Source: an uncultured Tenacibaculum sp. (GTDB lineage: Bacteria; Bacteroidota; Bacteroidia; Flavobacteriales; Flavobacteriaceae). Taken from it: 64,000 nt of DNA. The notes below the pieces were generated by a model. The model did no database searches. It was not told the DNA's origin and saw nothing but the letters and a program-made list of their open reading frames with translations. The stretch is from contig NZ_CANLTU010000002.1 in the NCBI RefSeq assembly GCF_947494125.1, positions 186,001-250,000 of the forward strand, given 5' to 3'. A program made the position numbers and the translations under genes. Below are positions 3,345 to 53,750 of the stretch, in pieces (within the stretch, counting starts at the first letter, position 1; each line of letters starts with the position of its first letter).

Positions 3345-4679
3345 TTAAGCAATTACTTCTTTATTTACAAAGTCAAAACGTACTATACCATCTTCATCAA
3401 TTTTAGATAAAGTAACTGTATGTAAGGTGTTTATTAGTTCAGGATTCCAAGGACTTTTTACTTTTACATAATTTTCTGTAAATCCATGGATATAACCTTC
3501 TTTGTTTTCACTTTCAAATAATACAGTTAAGGTATTTCCTAGTTGAGTTTCATAAAAAGCTCTACGTTTTTTTACAGATAAACCACGTAACATTTTACTT
3601 CGCTTAGCACGTACTTTTTTAGGTACAACACCATCCATATTTACAGCCTCTGTATTTGGTCTTTCAGAATAGGTAAAAACATGTAAATATGAAATATTCA
3701 TTTCGCTTAGATAATTGTATGTTTCTAAGAATAATTCATCAGTTTCACCTGGAAAACCAACAATTACGTCAACACCAATACAAGCGTTTGGCATTACTTC
3801 TTTTATTTTAGAAACTCTATTAGTATACGTTTTTGTTAAGTAACGACGCTTCATTCTTTTTAATAAATAATCGCTACCAGATTGTAATGGAATATGAAAA
3901 TGCGGAACAAACGTATCAGATTTTGAAACAAAGTCTATGGTTTCATCTTTTAATAAGTTAGGCTCAATAGAAGAGATTCGTAAACGATGAATACCTTCAA
4001 CGTTATCTAATTCTTTAACTAATTCTAAAAAGGTGTGTTCATGTTTTTTATTACCAAATTCACCTTTACCATAATCACCAATATTTACTCCAGTTAAAAC
4101 AATTTCTTTAATTCCTCTTTCTGAAATTTCTTTGGCATTTTTTAAAACATTTTCTACAGTATCTGAACGAGAAATACCACGAGCTAAAGGAATAGTGCAA
4201 TAGGTACATTTATAGTCGCAACCATCTTGTACTTTTAAAAAAGCACGGGTACGATCTCCAATTGAGTATGCGCCTACATAAGAATCAGCTTCTTCAATTT
4301 CACAAGAATGTACTTCACCAATGTCATTTTTAGTTAAGTCGTTTATATAACTAGTAACGTTAAATTTTTCGGTAGCACCTAAAACTAAGTCAACTCCATC
4401 AACAGCAGCTAATTCTTCAGGTTTTAACTGTGCATAACACCCAACTCCAATAACAAAAGCTTCCTCATTTTTCTTTAAAGCAGATTTTACAATGCTTTTA
4501 AAACGTTTATCGGCATTATCGGTAACCGAACATGTGTTAATTACATATACATCTGCTTTTTCTTCAAATTCAACACGATCAAAACCTTCATTAACAAAGT
4601 TTCTAGCAATAGTAGAAGTTTCCGAAAAATTTAATTTACAACCTAAAGTATAAAAAGCTACTCTTTTATCTGCATTCAT
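3345..4679 (-). CDS. mtaB: tRNA (N6-threonylcarbamoyladenosine(37)-C2)-methylthiotransferase MtaB
   Basis: The 444-residue protein has the methylthiotransferase layout: an N-terminal UPF0004 domain with Cys14, Cys50 and Cys81 for the auxiliary iron-sulfur cluster, a radical-SAM domain with Cys154, Cys158 and Cys161 (CDYKCTYC), and a C-terminal TRAM-like region. MtaB adds a methylthio group to t6A37 of tRNAs decoding ANN codons. It could be confused with MiaB or RimO, but the start (RVAFYTLGCKLN) and length fit the MtaB group. It appears to be transcribed alone. Confidence 0.9.
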   Translation of the reverse strand: MNADKRVAFYTLGCKLNFSETSTIARNFVNEGFDRVEFEEKADVYVINTCSVTDNADKRFKSIVKSALKKNEEAFVIGVGCYAQLKPEELAAVDGVDLVLGATEKFNVTSYINDLTKNDIGEVHSCEIEEADSYVGAYSIGDRTRAFLKVQDGCDYKCTYCTIPLARGISRSDTVENVLKNAKEISERGIKEIVLTGVNIGDYGKGEFGNKKHEHTFLELVKELDNVEGIHRLRISSIEPNLLKDETIDFVSKSDTFVPHFHIPLQSGSDYLLKRMKRRYLTKTYTNRVSKIKEVMPNACIGVDVIVGFPGETDELFLETYNYLSEMNISYLHVFTYSERPNTEAVNMDGVVPKKVRAKRSKMLRGLSVKKRRAFYETQLGNTLTVLFESENKEGYIHGFTENYVKVKSPWNPELINTLHTVTLSKIDEDGIVRFDFVNKEVIA

Positions 4680-4789
4680 TCTTTTCTCAATCCTTAATAA
4701 AAAACAAAAACCTTGTGTAAGTCTTTAATTTTTTAGAAGTTCGTATAGTTTATGTTACTTAAACTGCCATAAGACAATTTTATAATTTG

Positions 4790-4797
4790 CAAAAATA
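4790..4797 (-). promoter_or_regulatory. Candidate -7 box upstream of mtaB
   Basis: The minus strand reads TATTTTTG, matching TAnnTTTG. It would give mtaB a leader of about 100 bases. No well-spaced TTG element is seen, so this is tentative. Confidence 0.35.
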
Positions 4798-4808
4798 CGA
4801 TAATATTC

Positions 4809-5309
4809 ATGATTTTTGAAACCCAAAGATTAGTCATTAGAAAATTGGAATTACTTGATTTAGAAGGCTTTTTTAAATTAGAAAGTAATCCATTGGTATT
4901 ACAATATGCTACTGGTGATGTAAAAACTCTTTTGGAATGTGAAAAAGAGCTTAAAAATTTGATAGAGAAGTATGATGAAGAGAATAACGATTTTTGGATT
5001 TATACTATTGAACATAAGTTAAATAATGAGTTTTTAGGTACTGTAGCATTGGTAAAAGATGATGAAGGAAATGATGAAATAGGTTATAGATTTATTCAAG
5101 AATATTGGGGTAACGGATATGCTACTGAAATTTGTGAAGCTTTAATAAACTATTGTAAGTCAATAGGAATGAAAAAACTTATTGGTTGCGTAGTTGACGA
5201 GAATATTGCCTCCGCAAAAATATTAGAACGTTTTAACTTTAAAGAAGTGGAGAAATTTGTTAGCGATGATATTGGTTTACCTGAAACTAAATATGAATTA
5301 GTATTATGA
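4809..5309 (+). CDS. GNAT family N-acetyltransferase (RimJ/RimL-like)
   Basis: The 166-residue protein begins with the TQRLVIRKLELLDLEGFF pattern of RimJ/RimL-type acetyltransferases. The acetyl-CoA loop is seen as QEYWGNGYATE at about residues 97-107, and the late strand as SAKILERFNFKEVE. Such enzymes move an acetyl group from acetyl-CoA to an amine; the acceptor here is unknown. Its stop overlaps the next ATG (ATGA), which marks co-translation with the small monooxygenase. Confidence 0.85.
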   Translation: MIFETQRLVIRKLELLDLEGFFKLESNPLVLQYATGDVKTLLECEKELKNLIEKYDEENNDFWIYTIEHKLNNEFLGTVALVKDDEGNDEIGYRFIQEYWGNGYATEICEALINYCKSIGMKKLIGCVVDENIASAKILERFNFKEVEKFVSDDIGLPETKYELVL

Positions 5310-5623
5310 TAGAAGATTCACTAACACCACCATATTATGCAGTTGTTTTTAGCACAGTTTTATCTGATGATATAGAAGGTTATGCAGAAATGGCAGAAAA
5401 AATGGAAATTTTAGCAAAACAACAAGAAGGTTATTTGGGAATAGAATCTGCTAGGGCAGAAATAGGTATTACAGTTTCATACTGGAAAAGTTTAGAAGCT
5501 ATTACAGTTTGGAAAAATAATATAGAGCATACTGAAGCTAGAGAAATAGGAAGAGAAAAGTGGTATAAGAAGTATCGATTGCGAATATGTAAAGTGGAAC
5601 GTGAATATGGATTTGAACAATAG
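5306..5623 (+). CDS. Antibiotic biosynthesis monooxygenase (ABM) domain protein
   Basis: This 105-residue protein looks like a single ferredoxin-like ABM domain. Typical patterns are the early YYAVVFST strand, a central QQEGYLGIESAR turn and SYWKSLEAITVWKNNIEH in the last half. Members dimerise and act as small cofactor-free oxygenases or as decomposition enzymes; the substrate is not predictable. It overlaps the acetyltransferase gene by 4 bases and lies 10 bases before the next gene. Confidence 0.8.
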   Translation: MIEDSLTPPYYAVVFSTVLSDDIEGYAEMAEKMEILAKQQEGYLGIESARAEIGITVSYWKSLEAITVWKNNIEHTEAREIGREKWYKKYRLRICKVEREYGFEQ

Positions 5624-5633
5624 AGTTAATTAA

Positions 5634-6146
5634 ATGTACGCAGTAATTTCAAAAATATTAAGTAAGTTTTTTAAACAGAATACTATTTTTAAACACGGTT
5701 TTAATATTTCACCCATGTACCGTAGATCTACAGGGAAAATTATTGAAGTATCAGAAGATTTACTAGAAGCTAAAGTTAAAATTCCTATTAGTTATAAGAA
5801 TAAAAATTATGTAGGTTCTATTTTCGGAGGCAGTCTATTTTCGGCTACTGACCCAGTTTTTATGATTCAATTAATGAATATTTTAGGAAATGATTATGTA
5901 GTTTGGGATAAAAGTGCTGAAATAAAATTTAAAAGACCTGCAAAAGAGAATTCATATGTAGATTTTATTTTTACAAAAGAAGAAATTGTAAAAATAAAAG
6001 AGCGAGTACTAGAAGAAAAAGAAATAGATTTAAAAAAAAAAATTAAAATCACTAATAAAGATGCTTCAATTATATATGCAGAAGTATCTAAAATCATATA
6101 CATTGCTGATAAAAATTATTATAAAAATAAAAGAAAGAAAAAATAA
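5634..6146 (+). CDS. DUF4442 hotdog-fold protein
   Basis: The 170-residue protein resembles DUF4442, a hotdog-fold family related to acyl-CoA thioesterases. The pattern NYVGSIFGGSLFSATDP (about residues 60-76) corresponds to the central helix and its entry. The substrate and activity are unknown. The last 25 codons are very rich in lysine and overlap, in another frame, the signal-peptide region of the following lipoprotein gene. Confidence 0.75.
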   Translation: MYAVISKILSKFFKQNTIFKHGFNISPMYRRSTGKIIEVSEDLLEAKVKIPISYKNKNYVGSIFGGSLFSATDPVFMIQLMNILGNDYVVWDKSAEIKFKRPAKENSYVDFIFTKEEIVKIKERVLEEKEIDLKKKIKITNKDASIIYAEVSKIIYIADKNYYKNKRKKK

Positions 6147-7737
6147 TTTTCTTGTTTTAGTATTGCTTTTACTAGGTGCTTATTCTTGTGCTAAAAAAGA
6201 AAGTAAGTATAGCGATACACAAGTTTTTCGTTATAATGAACATTCAAATATTACTTCGTTAGATCCAGCTTTTGCGAAAGATCAACGTAATATTTGGGCA
6301 GTAAATCAATTATATAACGGATTGGTTGAATTAGACGATAGTTTACATGTAAAGCCTGCTATAGCTAAAAGTTGGACAATCTCTGAAGATGGAAAAACAT
6401 ATAAATTTACCTTAAGAGATAATGTTCAGTTTCATAAACATCAACTATTTGGAAAAGATTCAACAAGAACAGTAAATGCTAGTGATTTTGAATATTCGTT
6501 CAATAGATTGTTAGATAAAAATGTAGTTTCTCCAGGAGGTTGGGTATTACAAAATGTAGATAGTTTTAAAGCAGAAAACGATTCTACTTTTACAGTAAAA
6601 TTAAAGCAATCTTTTCCTCCATTTTTAGGATTGTTAGCAATGAAATATTGTTCGGTAGTATCAAAAGAAGCTGTTGAATATTTTGGAAATACTTTTAGAG
6701 CAAATCCTATTGGTACAGGACCTTTTCAGTTTAAATTATGGGTAGAAAACACCAAATTGGTATTGCGAAAAAACCCATTATATTTTGAAAAAGACCTTGA
6801 AGGAAAACAATTACCTTATTTAGAAGCAGTAGCAGTTACTTTTTTACCAGACAAACAGAGTGAGTTTTTACAATTTATTCAAGGGAATTTAGATTTCATG
6901 AAGAGTTTAGACGCTTCTTATAAAGACGATATTTTAAATACTGATGGTACTTTAAAAGAAAAGTATGTTAATAAAATAACGATGCAAACAGGAGCTTATT
7001 TAAATACTGAGTATTTAGGAATTTATTTAGATGGAGAAAAAAGTTTACCAACGCAATCGAAGTTAATAAGACAAGCCATTAATTACGGATTTGATCGTGA
7101 AAAAATGATTACTTTTTTAAGAAATGGAATAGGAACACCTGCAACAAGTGGATTTATACCAAAAGGATTACCATCGTTTAACAATCAAAAAGGATATTCT
7201 TACCAGCCAGAAAAGGCAAAAGCATTAGTAGAACGATATAAAGTAGAAACAGGAAATAATTCACCACAAATAGCTATTACAACCAACAGTAATTATTTAG
7301 ATTTATGCGAGTTTATACAAAGAGAGTTACAAAAAATAGGATTACAAACTAAAGTAGATGTAATTCCTCCTTCAGCACTACGACAAGGAAAGGCGAGTGG
7401 TAAGTTACCAATTTTTAGAGCAAGTTGGATTGCAGATTATCCTGATGCCGAAAATTATGTGTCTTTATTTTATAGTAAAAACTTTACACCTAACGGGCCT
7501 AATTATACGCATTTTAAGAATGAGAAGTTTGATGAGTTATATGAGCAGTCAATTAAAGAAGTAGCAATTGAAAAACGTTATAAATTATACCAGAAAATGG
7601 ATAGTATTATAATAAGTGAAGCTCCAGTTGTTCCTTTATATTATGATGAAGTTATTCGTTTTTCTCAAAAAAATGTACAAGGCTTAGGTATTAATCCTAT
7701 TGATTTATTGAATTTAAAAAAGGTTAGTAAACAGTAG
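6103..7737 (+). CDS. Solute-binding lipoprotein, ABC transporter family 5
   Basis: The product belongs to the peptide/nickel-type substrate-binding family 5. It shows the early LDPAFAKDQRN segment, a SWTISEDGKTYKFTLRDNVQFH stretch and the late ASWIADYPDAENY motif. Its lipobox is LGAYSC, so it should be anchored in a membrane facing the periplasm. The start is uncertain. An ATG at 6061 would overlap the DUF4442 gene by 86 bases; a TTG at 6103 leaves a 29-residue signal peptide and is preferred. No permease or ATPase gene adjoins it, so it is an orphan binding protein. Confidence 0.85.
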   Translation: MLIKIIIKIKERKNNFLVLVLLLLGAYSCAKKESKYSDTQVFRYNEHSNITSLDPAFAKDQRNIWAVNQLYNGLVELDDSLHVKPAIAKSWTISEDGKTYKFTLRDNVQFHKHQLFGKDSTRTVNASDFEYSFNRLLDKNVVSPGGWVLQNVDSFKAENDSTFTVKLKQSFPPFLGLLAMKYCSVVSKEAVEYFGNTFRANPIGTGPFQFKLWVENTKLVLRKNPLYFEKDLEGKQLPYLEAVAVTFLPDKQSEFLQFIQGNLDFMKSLDASYKDDILNTDGTLKEKYVNKITMQTGAYLNTEYLGIYLDGEKSLPTQSKLIRQAINYGFDREKMITFLRNGIGTPATSGFIPKGLPSFNNQKGYSYQPEKAKALVERYKVETGNNSPQIAITTNSNYLDLCEFIQRELQKIGLQTKVDVIPPSALRQGKASGKLPIFRASWIADYPDAENYVSLFYSKNFTPNGPNYTHFKNEKFDELYEQSIKEVAIEKRYKLYQKMDSIIISEAPVVPLYYDEVIRFSQKNVQGLGINPIDLLNLKKVSKQ

Positions 7738-48584: not shown

Positions 48585-49310
48585 ATGACGGTAATAATTT
48601 TCATGATTTTTTTATGGTATTCAGGATTGTTTTTTCAAACCTTTTTTCTACATAGATATGCAGCACATCAAACTTTTACAATGTCGAGGTTTGCAGAAAA
48701 AGTATGTTTTGTATTAACATGGGTTTTTCAAGGTTCTAATTATTTAAGTGCCTATGGGTATGGGGTTATGCATAGATTACATCATGCGTACGCTGATACA
48801 GAAAAAGATCCACACTCACCAAAATATGATGAAAACTTATTTAAGATGATGTGGCGTACTAAAAATATATATCAAGATATAAATAACGAAAGAATAACGG
48901 TAGCAGAAAAGTTTACTAAAAATGTACCACAATGGAAACGTTTTGATGATTTTGCAAGTTCAAAAACTTCAAGATTAACTTGGTGTGCTTTATATACGTT
49001 GTTTTTTATAGTATTTGCAACAGCTTGGTGGCAGTGGTTATTTTTACCAGTAGCATTTTTAATGGCACCAATACACGGGGTAATAATTAATTGGTTTGCT
49101 CATATTTATGGTTATGTAAATTTTGATGTAAAAGATACTTCTAAAAACTTATTACCATTTGATTTTTTAATGATGGGAGAAGGCTATCATAATAATCATC
49201 ATGCTCATGGGGGACGCGCCAATTTCGGTGGAGTAAGATGGCATGAGGTAGATGTTACGTATTGTATAATGAAAGCATTGGATAAGCTAAAAATAATAAA
49301 GCTTAAATAA
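48585..49310 (+). CDS. Acyl-CoA (delta-9 type) fatty acid desaturase
   Basis: The membrane enzyme has the three histidine boxes of desaturases: HRYAAH, HRLHH and HNNHH, with hydrophobic segments between. It introduces a double bond into acyl chains using two iron atoms, oxygen and an electron donor. The ATG at 48,585 is chosen over an in-frame TTG at 48,564, because it begins the first membrane segment. Its end overlaps the convergent response regulator by 8 bases. Confidence 0.9.
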   Translation: MTVIIFMIFLWYSGLFFQTFFLHRYAAHQTFTMSRFAEKVCFVLTWVFQGSNYLSAYGYGVMHRLHHAYADTEKDPHSPKYDENLFKMMWRTKNIYQDINNERITVAEKFTKNVPQWKRFDDFASSKTSRLTWCALYTLFFIVFATAWWQWLFLPVAFLMAPIHGVIINWFAHIYGYVNFDVKDTSKNLLPFDFLMMGEGYHNNHHAHGGRANFGGVRWHEVDVTYCIMKALDKLKIIKLK

Positions 49311-49986
49311 AACCTTTGTCTCTAGCCATTAAGATAAGATCTTTATCGTCTGAGCTAGTAACACCAAACATTTGTTTTATTTGACGTTTTCTCTTTTCAA
49401 TACCAGGAAAAGAAAGCGGAATAATATTAGGTAAATCTTTCATTTTAGTACCAATAGAAAGCTCATATAACATTTTTCTATCTAGGTCGTCAATTAAATA
49501 TTCACTAGTAACTTCGTTTCTAAGAAGTTTTGTAATGGTTTTGCTGTAGTAGGGAGGGTCATTTAAGACTTCTTGTATAGCAGTAACCAATTCTTGAGGT
49601 GTGATATCGTTTTTTACTAAAAAGCCATCAGGATTGATATTTTTAAAAATACTATGCACTCTAAAATTGTCGTTAAAAGTTGTGGAGACAATTATTCTAG
49701 CTTCAGGCAACATGGCGTTTATTTTTAAACCTAAATCTTCACCAGATAAAATAGTTCCATCAGAGGAAGCAGGCAATCGCATGTCTAAAAAAATAATGTC
49801 TACTTTTTTAGATGCATCTGCGTGTATTTTTATAAGTTCATATGCGGTATCGCAATTGTGAGCAACATGTATTTCAAATGAAATATGTTCGTTTTGCTGA
49901 TCAATATAATTGAACGCACTTTTGTAAGCTTCAGAAATTAACGGATGATCGTCAATAATTAAAGCAGTGTATTTTTTATTGTTCAT
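49303..49986 (-). CDS. Response regulator transcription factor (NarL-like)
   Basis: The 227-residue protein has a receiver domain with Asp12 and Asp13 and the phosphorylated Asp68 in IIFLDMRLP. The C-terminal 65 residues are a LuxR-like helix-turn-helix that is shorter and more diverged than the standard one (IGTKMKDLPNIIPLSF). It overlaps the histidine kinase gene by 11 bases, so it is its cognate regulator. Confidence 0.88.
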   Translation of the reverse strand: MNNKKYTALIIDDHPLISEAYKSAFNYIDQQNEHISFEIHVAHNCDTAYELIKIHADASKKVDIIFLDMRLPASSDGTILSGEDLGLKINAMLPEARIIVSTTFNDNFRVHSIFKNINPDGFLVKNDITPQELVTAIQEVLNDPPYYSKTITKLLRNEVTSEYLIDDLDRKMLYELSIGTKMKDLPNIIPLSFPGIEKRKRQIKQMFGVTSSDDKDLILMARDKGFI

Positions 49987-51991
49987 TATTCATTGTATAA
50001 GGGGATTTAATTACTAAGGTGGTACCTTTATTTACTTCTGATATAAATTGTACAGTACCATTTAATTTTTCTACTCTCGATTTTATATTTTTTAAACCAA
50101 TACCTTTTTTACCTTTTTTAGTATTAAAGCCAACACCGTCGTCTTTTAAATTAACAATAAGGTTTTGGTTTTCGTTAGAAAATACTAAAGTAACATTTTT
50201 TGCTTTGGCGTGCTTTATAATGTTTTGTAACGCTTCTTGTACAATTCTATATACATTGGCTTTTGTTACTTCATTAATGTCTTTCCATGAGATATTTTTA
50301 TCAAAAGAAAAATTATAGGTAAAGTTACCTATGGTACTTTTATCTTTTAACAATTGTTCTATAATAGAAGTAAAATTAATATTAGAACTATCAAAATTAT
50401 CGCTCAGTTTATGAGAAACATCTCTAATTTCTTTTTCTATTTCCTGTAATTCATTTAAAAAGGATTGGTGTTTTTCTAACAAATCATCATCACCTTTAAT
50501 GGGTAAAAAACCAAGACCAAAACGAGTACCAAAAAGTTTCCCAAGAATACCATCGTGTAATTCTTCTGAAATTCTATTGCGTTCTTTTACTTTTTCTTCT
50601 TCAAGTTTGGCTTGTTGTTGTAGGGTTAAAACATATACTTCTTCATTCGCTTTTTGTTGTTCGGCTTCCAAGCTAAGTTTTTCGTTTTTTACTTTTTGTA
50701 CACGTAAAAAGTAGAGTAAACTTAAAATAAGAATACCACCAATACTGGTAATGAGTATCCAAATACGTTGTTGGTTTAAACGTTTGGTTTCTTCAATATA
50801 TTCATCGGTTTCAAATTCAATACGAGTAAACTTATTTTGGACTTTTCGTTCAGCACTAATTAAACTATCGTTAAAAACAATATAACGATCTAAGTATTTT
50901 TTAGAATTTTGTATGTCTAAATCGGCTAATTGCTTTAAAGTAGTTAGATAGTAGCCTCCATTTTTTATTTGTTTAGCTAATGTATTAGCCTCTTTAGCGT
51001 ATTTTAAAGCATTTATAGTATCTTTTATATATTTGTAATAGTCAGATATATTTTTATTTGAAGAAATAATATTAGTTTTATCCTTTAAGCTATCTCTAAT
51101 AGACAAAGCTAGAAATAATTCTTTTTTAATATTAATAGTATCATTCATTAACAATTTACAATAAGCTTTATTATTTAATAATCTTGCCAAGTGTTGTTTT
51201 TGTTTATTAATTTTAAGAGCCTTATTATAATATTCTAAAGCTTTATTGTATTTTTTATTCTTAAAATGTACTCTTCCAATGTTATTTAACAATATTTCAT
51301 AATATTTGTTTTTATATTTAGTTTTATTTAAATAGAATAAAGCTTTACTATAGTAATCTAAAGCCTTATTGTATTCTTTAATATCTATTTGTAGCAAGCC
51401 TAAATGATTATATGCACGATATAAATCTGTATTATTATTTAGATCTTTAAATAACTTTATTGCTTTGACGCTTAATATTTCACTACCTATATAATCTCTA
51501 TAGCGACCTTTAATTCTAGCCATACCATATAAAATTTGTGAGGCTTCTTTTTTATTGTTCTCTTTGATAAAATTTTCATAGGCTTTATTAAAATAATAAT
51601 AGGCTTTATCATATAGTTCTAATTTTATATAATGACCAGCATAATTCCAGTGAGCATCTCCAATAGCATAGCTATGTTTATTTTTGATTGCAGAATTTAA
51701 AGCTCTTTTATTTACTTTTAAAAAAGAAACAGTGTCTTTTAATACATGAAATTCATAAGCAATAGAGCTAAGTTCTAGAGGTAGTTGTTTATTATTATTT
51801 AAGATGTAATTATAGGATTTTAGTAAAATTTTAGATCTAGAAGTGCTATCTAACTTTTTATTTTTTGCTTTTTTTATCCATGTTTTAAGACTATCGTTTT
51901 GGAATCTATAATATTTAGAGGAAGAAAAACAGATTAAATTCCCTATATATATAAGGAATATAAAAACTATAGTTTTATTAAGAGGCTTCAA
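49976..51991 (-). CDS. TPR-containing sensor histidine kinase (HisKA_3 type)
   Basis: The 671-residue protein has an N-terminal signal or anchor (about 7-24), a periplasmic run of tetratricopeptide repeats (about 90-340), one membrane segment (about 410-429), a coiled coil and a HisKA_3 domain with the phosphorylated His479 in ERNRISEELHDG. The ATPase domain follows (NVYRIVQEALQNIIKHAKA, DDGVGFN, GIGLKNI). Signals probably bind the TPR region. It heads a unit with the response regulator. Confidence 0.92.
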   Translation of the reverse strand: MKPLNKTIVFIFLIYIGNLICFSSSKYYRFQNDSLKTWIKKAKNKKLDSTSRSKILLKSYNYILNNNKQLPLELSSIAYEFHVLKDTVSFLKVNKRALNSAIKNKHSYAIGDAHWNYAGHYIKLELYDKAYYYFNKAYENFIKENNKKEASQILYGMARIKGRYRDYIGSEILSVKAIKLFKDLNNNTDLYRAYNHLGLLQIDIKEYNKALDYYSKALFYLNKTKYKNKYYEILLNNIGRVHFKNKKYNKALEYYNKALKINKQKQHLARLLNNKAYCKLLMNDTINIKKELFLALSIRDSLKDKTNIISSNKNISDYYKYIKDTINALKYAKEANTLAKQIKNGGYYLTTLKQLADLDIQNSKKYLDRYIVFNDSLISAERKVQNKFTRIEFETDEYIEETKRLNQQRIWILITSIGGILILSLLYFLRVQKVKNEKLSLEAEQQKANEEVYVLTLQQQAKLEEEKVKERNRISEELHDGILGKLFGTRFGLGFLPIKGDDDLLEKHQSFLNELQEIEKEIRDVSHKLSDNFDSSNINFTSIIEQLLKDKSTIGNFTYNFSFDKNISWKDINEVTKANVYRIVQEALQNIIKHAKAKNVTLVFSNENQNLIVNLKDDGVGFNTKKGKKGIGLKNIKSRVEKLNGTVQFISEVNKGTTLVIKSPYTMNNEQ

Positions 51992-52064: not shown

Positions 52065-52295
52065 TTAATTTCCTTTAGTTCCATCAGCACCATCATCTCC
52101 ATCATCACCACCGGTATCTACAAATCCTCCAGAGGTATCATCATCATCATTAGTATTAAATCCAGTAACTAATTCTGTATTTTGTTTTTTAGTCTCAGGC
52201 ACTAAGTCTTCAGTGTTTAAGTCTGTACAACTTATTGTTAAAAGAGTTAGCATGCTGATTAGTAAAGTAGTTTTTAAAGTTTTCATAATTTTCAA
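52065..52295 (-). CDS. Small lipoprotein with an Asp/Gly-rich tail
   Basis: The 76-residue product has a signal peptide with the lipobox TISC and Cys23. The remaining 53 residues are hydrophilic, with DDDD near residue 51 and a repeated GGDDGDDGADG tail that could bind calcium. It is not recognised as any family. It lies upstream of the sensor kinase on the same strand and downstream of a structured non-coding region. A role as a secreted or surface ligand for the kinase is possible but unproven. Confidence 0.65.
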   Translation of the reverse strand: MKIMKTLKTTLLISMLTLLTISCTDLNTEDLVPETKKQNTELVTGFNTNDDDDTSGGFVDTGGDDGDDGADGTKGN

Positions 52296-52345
52296 TTTTA
52301 ATATTTGACATTAGTTTTCTAGGCCGCATATGCAGCTGTTATAGC

Positions 52346-52664
52346 ATCGAATTGGTTATTTCGATTTTTTTTAAGCCTTGGTTAAATCAAGGCAATAGTC
52401 ATCTAGCCCAAGTAATTTTGGGTAGTTAGTAGAATCAAGTTGATATGGAACATCAACACGTGAAGACTCATTACTGCTAAGGCCTATTGAGTACAACAGA
52501 CTTCAGGAATTCTACTTAGTCATAAATAAAGGAAGCGTTTTTGCAATTTTTAATGAACGCTAGTTGATTGTCATACTAAAATAGTGACATAGTTTGTGTA
52601 AACGAACACAATTTTAGTAAGCGTTGTTGTTTAGTGAGTAAACGTCCTTTTTCATTTAGTTTAC
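52346..52664. other. Densely structured gene-free region, candidate non-coding RNA or leader
   Basis: At least seven perfect stems occur in 320 bases: 52,346-351/360-365, 375-380/388-393, 407-411/418-422, an outer 428-435/509-516 enclosing 439-444/452-457 and 466-470/488-492 as a three-way junction, and 574-582/611-619 with 594-599 inside. AACGCT at 52,556-561 can pair with either 52,534-539 or 52,620-625, so two folds exclude each other. The part around 52,403-52,516 is clearly less AT-rich than its surroundings. No match to tmRNA, RNase P or SRP motifs was found. Confidence 0.5.
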
Positions 52665-52783
52665 GCAATTTTAATGTTTTCATAGCTTTCTGTTTCATCC
52701 AATTAAGATAGTGAAAAATAACGAATTATCCAAATTTTTTCATGCTTTTCTGTGCTGTATTCGTTGTTATTATTCCATAAAAA

Positions 52784-52807
52784 AAGGCGCCCTTTTAAAG
52801 GCGCCTT
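52784..52807 (-). terminator. GC-rich intrinsic terminator on the minus strand
   Basis: AAGGCGCC (52,784-52,791) and GGCGCCTT (52,800-52,807) form a perfect 8-bp stem; the minus-strand transcript ends in seven U. It ends the transcript of the 38-codon reading frame and shields the structured region. Confidence 0.85.
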
Positions 52808-52835
52808 CTGTATATACTATATTATTGATTTGTTG

Positions 52836-52952
52836 TTAACTCTTCATTAAATATTGCTTTTTACAATAAACATCCTTATTCATTTTTATATTACTGCCAT
52901 CACCACTTACAAATAGTATTTCGATGATTGGGTTTAAATAAATTAGTGTCAT
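52836..52952 (-). CDS. Very small gene, 38-residue peptide
   Basis: A 38-codon frame from an ATG at 52,952 ends at a TAA, 29 bases before a strong terminator. A well-formed promoter lies 60 bases upstream. The peptide starts with a hydrophobic part (MTLIYLNPIIEILFV) and ends in a lysine-rich polar part with one cysteine. I do not recognise it. A non-coding RNA containing a chance frame is the alternative. Confidence 0.45.
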   Translation of the reverse strand: MTLIYLNPIIEILFVSGDGSNIKMNKDVYCKKQYLMKS

Positions 52953-53011
52953 AATTTTTAAATATTAATTTGTTAAATAATCATTTAAAAACTATTCAAA
53001 TGATTACGGTA

Positions 53012-53041
53012 CAAATATACGAATATTTTAAATAAAAACAA
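53012..53041 (-). promoter_or_regulatory. Promoter of the 38-codon gene
   Basis: On the minus strand TTG (53,041-53,039), a 19-base spacer and TATATTTG (53,019-53,012) match the Bacteroidota promoter exactly. Confidence 0.65.
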
Positions 53042-53223: not shown

Positions 53224-53255
53224 AAAAAAAAGCGTCCAATTTACTTGGACGCTTT
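53224..53255 (-). terminator. Intrinsic terminator on the minus strand
   Basis: An 11-bp perfect stem (53,229-53,239 with 53,245-53,255) with a 5-base loop is followed on the minus strand by a U-run. It lies 26 bases after the stop of the 42-codon gene. Confidence 0.85.
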
Positions 53256-53281
53256 ATATAGTGTTAATTTTTATTGTTAAA

Positions 53282-53410
53282 TCATATTCGAAAACTGGTT
53301 AAAATAAACATACTACGTCCGTTTTTGGAAAATTGCCCATCAGCAACTTCACGAAAACTGCAAGTTGGCTCCATTAGCCCTTTAGTTATATGTAAATTTA
53401 TTTTCATCAT
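53282..53410 (-). CDS. Very small gene, 42-residue peptide
   Basis: A 42-codon frame starts with two ATG codons at 53,410 and 53,407 and ends in TGA. The middle (MEPTCSFREVADGQF) uses GC-rich codons unlike the AT-rich flanks, which suggests selection on the sequence. A TATATTTG box ends only 7 bases before the first ATG, so the message would be leaderless or nearly so. A terminator follows. The peptide has one cysteine, no signal peptide and no family I recognise. It may also be a conserved RNA or repeat element that happens to be open. Confidence 0.5.
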   Translation of the reverse strand: MMKINLHITKGLMEPTCSFREVADGQFSKNGRSMFILTSFRI

Positions 53411-53417
53411 AATAGAG

Positions 53418-53425
53418 CAAATATA
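53418..53425 (-). promoter_or_regulatory. -7 box of the 42-codon gene
   Basis: The minus strand reads TATATTTG, the same octamer as at 53,012-53,019. The -33 position carries TTT rather than TTG. Confidence 0.5.
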
Positions 53426-53511: not shown

Positions 53512-53552
53512 AGTAAGTGTTTCACTTACTTTTAGTAAGTGAAACACTTACT
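53512..53552. promoter_or_regulatory. Four-half-site palindromic operator array
   Basis: AGTAAGTG, CACTTACT, AGTAAGTG and CACTTACT begin at 53,512, 53,523, 53,534 and 53,545, each separated by three A or T. The period is exactly 11 bp, so all four half-sites face one side of the helix. Each neighbouring pair is a perfect palindrome and the whole 41 bp is a 19-bp perfect inverted repeat. It ends 20 bases before a plus-strand -7 box, as expected for a repressor or activator site. Confidence 0.7.
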
Positions 53553-53572: not shown

Positions 53573-53580
53573 TATCTTTG
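53573..53580 (+). promoter_or_regulatory. -7 box downstream of the operator array
   Basis: TATCTTTG matches TAnnTTTG. The transcript would start near 53,586. No TTG element is seen at the right distance, in keeping with control by a bound protein. Confidence 0.5.
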
Positions 53581-53585
53581 TATTG

Positions 53586-53744
53586 GTTAAAAATTAAGCT
53601 CTTAAATGGGTTAGATATAAACGGGGGTTTGTATCGAGTCGTCAGGGAAAATTTTATGAAAAAAGAAAACAAAATGAGTGTTTTACTCTAACCAAAGTAA
53701 AAAACTAAAATGCATGTCACAAAAACGTCTAATTGGACGTTTTT
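53586..53744 (+). ncRNA. Putative short transcript of about 160 bases
   Basis: It runs from the predicted start after the -7 box to the terminator at 53,721-53,744. Its only frame with an ATG of any length is 11 codons (53,656-53,691, MKKENKMSVLL). A small hairpin, GAGT with ACTC at 53,676-53,688, lies inside that frame. It may be a regulatory RNA or a leader peptide. The ends are inferred. Confidence 0.35.
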
Positions 53745-53750
53745 TGTTTT
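53721..53750 (+). terminator. Intrinsic terminator of the short plus-strand transcript
   Basis: A 9-bp perfect stem (53,721-53,729 with 53,736-53,744) with a 6-base loop is followed by a long T-rich tail. It lies 80 bases before the next gene and so isolates the short transcript. Confidence 0.85.

Follow-up and report, generated by a model that had tools for sequence, protein, structure and literature searches.

A tandem palindromic array ahead of a predicted small RNA gene in Tenacibaculum as a candidate operator of a NarL/FixJ-type response regulator

Control of small RNAs by a two-component system is exemplified by the GacS/GacA (BarA/UvrY) cascade and its RNAs rsmX/Y/Z and csrB/C. Excerpts of two papers give the GacA box as TGTAAGN6CTTACA, located upstream of small RNAs (PMC8523701, PMC11837529), and an excerpt of a third describes rsmX-2, a duplicated small-RNA gene (PMC7911923). 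The locus analyzed here, in a stretch of 64,000 nucleotides (the window) from the genome of an uncultured Tenacibaculum sp. (G000; 3.85 Mb in 72 contigs), likewise combines a two-component regulator of predicted NarL/FixJ type, a GTAAG...CTTAC palindrome, and predicted small RNAs, with gene duplication among relatives. By analogy, the locus would work like GacA-rsmX/Y/Z. It is not a member of the Gac/Rsm cascade, because the gap of the box, CsrA, and the type of RNA all fail to fit. The Gac/Rsm box is single and has a 6-base gap, whereas here the palindromes are in tandem with a 7-base gap; the half-site letters here vary within one genus, with many relatives lacking GTAAG; and the kinase is a TPR protein, the helix-turn-helix (HTH) of the regulator escapes Pfam, and the RNA has no Rfam match at the gathering score. 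CsrA was found in none of 20 genomes (12 from the genus, including that of the window, and 8 from the order), and the control was positive in 3 of 14 (E. coli, B. subtilis, and T. maritima). Several hairpin loops bearing GGA were not encountered in the RNA either: there is one conserved GGGGA-type motif, and it lies outside both covarying hairpins.

In Vibrio, LuxO is an NtrC-type sigma-54 activator, and the Qrr RNAs are present in several, dispersed copies. The likeness is that of a response regulator driving multi-copy small RNAs, but the candidate regulator here is of the NarL/FixJ type and the copies are in tandem (at least eight in G110, four in G124, and two in G081). Regulators of the NarL/FixJ family bind an inverted-repeat site as a dimer, which the array resembles, and the fold predicted here is like that of NarL, LiaR/VraR, and RcsB; the recognition sequence differs, and the half-site class changed 11 times by parsimony on the tree of regulator receiver domains, some of these changes being of a single letter. 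With regard to the promoter, the -7 box is that of the Bacteroidota consensus, TAnnTTTG, as given in an excerpt of PMC7366714, but the operator sits here where the -33 element would be. Among the matches listed in the open-access literature, titles and abstract openings name no such locus; the portions seen of PMC9153119 and PMC9029176 hold nothing on it, the latter naming Tenacibaculum once, in a list.

The array occupies positions 53512 to 53552, belongs to neither strand, and is defined by its sequence and conserved geometry. Its letters are AGTAAGTGTTTCACTTACT-TTT-AGTAAGTGAAACACTTACT, a 41-mer in which the half-sites AGTAAGTG and CACTTACT alternate from starts at 53512, 53523, 53534, and 53545. 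All four are perfect and stand 20 bp ahead of TATCTTTG, exactly where the first-pass annotation of this DNA had placed them. The 11-bp period that it described holds for the half-site starts in the window, but the repeat conserved in relatives is one of 22 bp, made up of a 17-bp palindrome plus 5 bp. The two 17-bp units are GTAAGTGTTTCACTTAC at 53513-53529 and GTAAGTGAAACACTTAC at 53535-53551, 22 bp apart in period. Second-order Markov simulations of the window (n=40) contained on average 4.2 perfect 8-3-8 palindromes, compared with six in the real sequence, three of which are registers of the array, and none of the 40 contained a palindrome pair at 22 bp; by these counts, a lone palindrome is ordinary in so A+T-rich a window, but two in register are not. 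When up to three mismatches are allowed, the single palindrome has three matches in the window, where 0.38 would be expected, and the only mismatch-free matches in the whole genome are the two of the array.

The position of the array relative to the promoter is equally precise. The -7 box TATCTTTG, of the TAnnTTTG type, lies at 53573..53580 on the plus strand, 20 bases past the 41-mer and 21 past the last C of the array. A pattern built from the window site (GTAAGN7CTTACN5GTAAGN7CTTAC, at most two mismatches) was searched in 166 genomes of the genus and matched 39 sites in 24 of them; the reversed pattern, used as a control, matched in 0 of the 166. TnnnTTTG follows exactly 21 bases past the last C in 35 of the 39 sites and TAnnTTTG in 31, and at every other offset from 0 to 59 the box never occurs more than once. 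No -7 box stands at 21 in four sites: a three-unit array in G045 accounts for one, by its upstream register; G143 for two, one of which has TATATTTA in place of the exact box; and G084 for one, which is taken for a chance match. A blind grid combining 10 periods with 11 gaps (110 cells), applied to 40 contexts, scored cell (22,21) in 34; the other non-zero cells, (22,23) with 12 and (18,23) with 8, represent the same arrays read in a shifted register. Many array copies are also preceded by a run of A. The first-pass annotation had proposed an operator array that precedes a -7 box and whose spacing would suit two dimers on the same face of the DNA, and had set conservation in related genomes as its test beforehand; the array is indeed found in relatives, with its geometry fixed, which supports this part of its reading.

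An ortholog of the neighboring response regulator, defined as a match of at least 283 bits, is present in 44 of the 166 genus genomes and is carried by 22 of the 24 pattern genomes and 22 of the 142 others (Fisher 2.9e-13, relatedness ignored). The two genomes with the pattern and no ortholog are G061, which is 70% complete, and G084, with no -7 box at offset 21. Conversely, 22 of the 44 ortholog genomes have the pattern at up to two mismatches, and diverged arrays of the same geometry, one of them weak, lie in the regulator locus of 18 of the remaining 22, which brings the array to 40 of 44 (diverged arrays were sought in ortholog genomes only). Among these, G035 matches with three mismatches and G089 with four, and 16 of the 20 further genomes keep the geometry in an array with other letters: GTGCGG/GTGTGG half-sites in G072, G080, G160, and G159; GTATGG in G115, G154, G137, and G123; GTACGG in G090 and G056; GTAGCC in G025; GTGTGG in G091; GTAGGG in G011; GTAAGG/GTGAGG in G162; a GAGG...CCTC array in G110; and the weak array in G039. 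The half-site types of the genus thus include GTAAGTG, GTAAGTC, GTAAGG, GTATGG, GTGCGG, GTACGG, and GTAGCC, at constant geometry. In the ortholog genomes G119, G044, and G063 the array was not found, and in G031 the contig ends before the array region. Of 80 named regulator loci, 25 gave an array in a sequence-blind scan, as did 0 of 400 shuffles; the scan misses weak arrays and called none in locus L147. The arrays were in records labelled Tenacibaculum and in four labelled Flavobacteriaceae or Polaribacter, and among the 80 loci no array was called in the rows for Aquimarina, Lutibacter, Psychroserpens, and Bizionia.

When the array is placed into the context of its locus, a candidate for the binding protein comes into view. 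The statement of the first-pass annotation that no regulator gene adjoins the array did not survive: a histidine kinase and response regulator pair lies 1.5-4.2 kb away in the same conserved block, and the predicted recognition helix of this regulator co-varies with the half-sites. The order of the locus is regulator, TPR kinase, lipoprotein, divergent short units, array, predicted small RNA, and terminator, and on the minus-strand side of the array one meets the divergent unit, two more short stretches, the lipoprotein, the kinase, and the regulator. The response regulator (49303..49986, minus strand) is the candidate array-binding protein on the grounds of Pfam Response_reg, a predicted NarL/FixJ-type HTH, an AlphaFold model with fold matches, and co-variation. 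The kinase (49976..51991, minus strand) has TPR repeats, HisKA_3, and HATPase_c by Pfam and adjoins the regulator in relatives too. This order recurs in the core loci of relatives, with kinase and regulator visible in the longer stretches; the locus of G143 differs in having a second regulator-like gene in between. Among the closest sequences in a scan with the regulator alignment were those of Tenacibaculum aiptasiae (96% identity), uncultured Tenacibaculum, T. ovolyticum, and T. caenipelagi.

The assignment of the regulator to the NarL/FixJ type combines domain and fold predictions. Its receiver domain matches Pfam Response_reg above the cut-off, with 36.8 bits, and Asp12, Asp13, and Asp68 are invariant among 16 aligned orthologs, as expected of the receiver of NarL/FixJ regulators. 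Pfam GerE gave no match in the regulator, and the NarL- and GacA-type models of NCBIfam match it below their cut-offs. In the AlphaFold model (mean pLDDT 80.8), the C-terminal helices span residues 162-177, 182-187, 193-207, and 214-223, and the third of the four, 193-207, is predicted to take the position of a recognition helix. The closest solved folds are RcsB, LiaR, spr1814, and VraR, all of NarL/FixJ type; the list of fold matches is dominated by receiver domains and says little on the HTH alone, and the full-length matches to RcsB, LiaR, and spr1814 span both domains at an rmsd of about 11-15. As a separate observation, the genome also encodes a paralog of the regulator (G000:C1:758556-759230, 49% identity), and a paralog is present in several relatives as well.

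Variation in the half-sites can be followed together with variation in the regulator across 36 genomes that have both, the set having lost four genomes without an array and G110, G056, G091, and G143, which were missing from the regulator set. Over 29 non-redundant pairs, half-site and HTH distances are correlated once the receiver distance is removed (r=0.41, reached by 0 of 2000 permutations), a treatment that removes shared descent only in part. Ranked individually, columns 190 and 194 come out on top of 161 variable columns and column 197 fifth, and the non-HTH columns 146, 48, 132, 44, 65, and 18 are also in the top ten. The co-varying positions presumably correspond to the base-contacting residues of NarL, according to an alignment by eye. 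TC at half-site positions 6-7 accompanies Ala204 in 12 of 12 genomes and is found in 0 of the 24 others, with three changes each on the receiver tree, and C at position 4 accompanies Arg194 in 5 of 5 against 0 of 31, with two changes each. Independent co-changes number one to three; on well-supported branches there are two for Ala204-TC and one for Arg194-C, all concordant, and sign tests cannot reach 0.05 because they are so few. The co-variation is hence strong as a pattern in the aligned sequences and weak as statistics. GTAAGTG itself is paired with two sets of residues, E197/R201/K204 in G000, G098, and G158 and Q197/S201/T204 in G116, and Pro194 of the G000 regulator is elsewhere seen with GTATG-type sites.

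Past the -7 box there is no gene of the usual size; there is instead a stretch that ends in a terminator (53721-53744) and is predicted to be a small RNA of approximate ends 53587..53750 on the plus strand, with a match to covariance model R1 at 53581-53668. A 341-base query retrieved related stretches in relatives, most of which have in common the 5' sequence GGTTAAAA, a pair of hairpins, the GTCGTC-GGGGAAAAT-CTATGAAAAA motif, the TTTACTCTAACCAAAGTAAA element, and the terminator; in G003, G002, G045, and G157, motif and terminator are kept and the 3' part is different and longer. In the window, all on the plus strand, alignment A4 places hairpins 1 and 2, with covarying pairs, at 53598..53611 and 53614..53635, and comparison of relatives adds a conserved single-stranded motif, GTCGTC-GGGAAAAT..TATGAAAAAAG, at 53638..53665 (also in A4) and a conserved 3' element, TTTTACTCTAACCAAAGTAAAA, at 53681..53702, followed by the called intrinsic terminator at 53721..53744. 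In a 10-sequence alignment of the 5' domain, on which the structure was set by eye and which therefore favors it, 96.9% of the cells of the two hairpins are paired, compared with 28-55% for slid-structure controls. Changes on both sides affect 5 of 13 pairs, a count that shuffles reach in 5 of 500, and pair types, one of five measures, are not above shuffles (161 of 500). An earlier 22-sequence alignment had yielded terminator pairs only in RNAalifold, MAFFT having misaligned the variable hairpins as judged by eye. The R1 model of the 5' domain matches in 24 of the 166 genus genomes, and 22 of these carry the ortholog of the regulator, the exceptions being G012, with a completeness of 67%, and G061, with 70%. 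At the gathering score, Rfam matched nothing in the window or in six relative loci, and the Rfam families considered for the array or the small RNA were dropped as sub-threshold, among them a plant microRNA model on the palindrome. A long-range GGTTA-UAACC pairing, seen in many of the RNAs, was likewise abandoned, being absent by eye in G028 and G162.

Duplication of the unit is most extensive in G110 (L125, about 4350-6733), where at least eight cassettes of array, promoter, small RNA, and terminator follow one another head to tail about 281 bp apart; up to the end of the stretch there are nine arrays, the last of them at the very end, and eight occurrences of the RNA motif. The R1 scores of these RNAs are weak (E of about 0.4). 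Cassettes are also found in tandem in G124 (L066, four copies) and G081 (L071, two copies), where each of two subtypes, told apart by their 5' ends, GGTTAAAA and GGTTGAAA, is present twice in G124 and once in G081.

The array is not confined to the small RNA, as 10 of the 35 promoter-linked arrays stand away from it. In all nine of these for which the core locus is known, the half-sites resemble those of the core; the tenth is in G061. In G003, the array-linked genes include one for a protein in which an EndoU nuclease domain scores 51 bits (cut-off 25), as well as two for double-glycine peptides whose bacteriocin or lantibiotic matches are weak and below cut-off. At locus L062 of G003, a short peptide pair with double-glycine-type leaders is followed by small membrane-protein genes, likely a bacteriocin-type locus in a Bacteroidota genome. 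In G002, a 968-residue open frame, running to the end of the stretch, scores 24.8 for SpvB overall against a cut-off of 22, with no single stretch passing. A DUF6973 protein in G055 and lipoproteins without a family are also among the array-linked genes, and three lipoproteins of G055/G111 (L063, L064, and L065) share an N-terminus, KQIANLLKLGVFLFG.SLLLWNC, and differ in their C-terminal parts, of which one has a weak, below-cut-off SprT-like match, one matches DUF6973, and one has no match. A common N-terminus with varied C-termini is what polymorphic toxins often have, and by this resemblance the proteins may be compared with them. The second array of G097 has its nearest gene at least about 175 bases off, and in G000 the core array alone was found. 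Judged from position, secreted competition genes are likely part of the regulon in some species, and since the same array precedes bacteriocin-like, EndoU, secreted, or lipoprotein genes there, the circuit probably serves competition or cell-cell signaling in those species.

Taken together, we put at roughly three in four the probability that the array is a tandem operator where the NarL/FixJ-type regulator whose gene lies 3.5 kb away would bind as two dimers and activate the predicted promoter of a candidate structured small RNA of about 160 nt. The array is likely to be the binding site of this regulator because its spacing stays fixed while its letters change with the predicted recognition-helix residues. 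Most probably the kinase phosphorylates the regulator, whose dimers would then occupy both palindromes on one DNA face with centers at about -42 and -64, assuming that transcription starts about 12 bases past the first base of the -7 box. Such a placement would correspond to a class II plus class I activator layout, in which the bound regulator could replace the -33 element and aid RNA polymerase; we infer the direction, activation, from the exact offset of the -7 box. The small RNA might in turn regulate other genes, base pairing with mRNAs being a plain guess as to how, and titration of CsrA is not expected because CsrA is absent from all 20 genomes searched.

The same operator might instead serve repression, with dimers covering the -33 region and blocking the small-RNA promoter. 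Where a palindromic operator overlies a promoter, it often serves a repressor, and the array, ending 20 bp ahead of the -7 box, covers the usual -33 position; yet repressor sites allow more positional freedom than the exact 21-base offset seen even at unrelated genes, and centers near -42 and -64 fit activation, which makes repression unlikely in our view. That the operator belongs to a different DNA-binding protein travelling with the locus would accommodate the six non-HTH columns in the top ten of the half-site correlation, but the two best columns fall in the predicted recognition region, Ala204-TC and Arg194-C match exactly, and the arrays away from the small RNA have core-like half-sites in nine of nine genomes with a known core, so we consider this less probable again.

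A nucleic-acid hairpin, either a cruciform or a leftward terminator, deserves comment since the whole array folds strongly, with a 19-bp stem and a 3-base loop followed by a minus-strand T-tract. The minus strand gives a terminator-like match, the A-run ahead of many copies would fit, and whole-array pairing averages 0.887 over 36 genomes, being complete in 14, with central triplets that pair across units in 75%. As an intrinsic terminator, however, the stem has 6 of 19 pairs G-C and is broken in several relatives: of 17 pairs, 10-11 are kept in G124, G081, and G074, 12 in G089 and G025, 11 in G011, and 9 in G039. A hairpin would also leave unexplained the fixed distance to the -7 box and the co-variation with the regulator, and we regard it as very improbable. 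The RNA hairpin that the first-pass annotation had offered as an alternative is weakened but retains some probability: it is broken in several genomes, yet averaged over the 36 it is maintained no less well than the symmetry within units. Indeed, mirror symmetry of the whole array equals that within units (0.887 each, 36 genomes) and exceeds what two independent dimers need; in genomes of the GTATGG and GTGCGG types, more is kept of the long pairing (14-17 of 17) than of the pairing inside the units (11-12 of 14), whereas G124, G081, and G074 have direct repeats as units. Dyad contact between dimers, correction of palindromes during replication, or a role of the hairpin could be the cause. Quasi-palindrome correction can perfect inverted repeats, and mirror symmetry is common in the arrays, as would suit a functionless repeat kept by mutational repair of palindromes; one promoter offset conserved before different genes, together with the failure of the reversed pattern to match in any of 166 genomes, leaves that explanation almost no weight.

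If activation by the NarL/FixJ-type regulator is correct, the locus would represent a response-regulator-to-small-RNA circuit for Bacteroidota, comparable to Gac/Rsm and working without CsrA. It would also set about 10 natural operator types against one regulator family, by which the DNA-recognition rules of NarL/FixJ-type proteins and their co-evolution become directly testable. A candidate regulator and a promoter are named here, together with an RNA family not represented in Rfam and, for some species, a linked set of bacteriocin- or toxin-like genes. A bolder proposal, tentative and in our estimate rather more doubtful than not, is that a Gac/Rsm-like switch arose independently in CsrA-less Bacteroidota, joining a new small-RNA family (at least eight tandem copies in one genome) to species-specific bacteriocin or polymorphic-toxin genes; the operator letters would have been rewritten about 11 times with geometry frozen and the recognition helix in step, and the lipoprotein or the short transcripts might be a signal in cell-cell communication.

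The lipoprotein and the short transcripts occupy the minus strand between kinase and array. The predicted lipoprotein, MKTLKTTLLISMLTLLTISCTDL... (52065..52295, 76 residues), is a conserved part of the locus and has no Pfam family. A divergent short transcript is predicted at 53282..53410, from the sequence of a TATATTTG -7 box at 53418..53425 and a terminator at 53229-53255, and holds a 42-codon open reading frame (ORF) of doubtful coding capacity, whose 42-aa product matched itself only in a large protein set. Pheromone peptides were considered for the short divergent ORFs of 35, 38, and 42 codons and set aside, coding being doubtful by pN/pS (0.71-1.29 for ORF35; 0.97-1.08 for ORF38, with 1.03 in the second clade without the 42-codon ORF of G049; 0.51-1.46 for ORF42). 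Two short units, at 52784-53020 and 53229-53425, each have a TATATTTG box and a 3' hairpin with a T-run and may be further small RNAs, as their ORFs show little protein constraint. Finally, about 400 bases ahead of the lipoprotein gene (52300-52700), a stretch with no Rfam match, are almost unchanged in G000, G098, G158, and G162 and by eye more conserved than other intergenic stretches of the same alignment, making them a candidate structured leader RNA.
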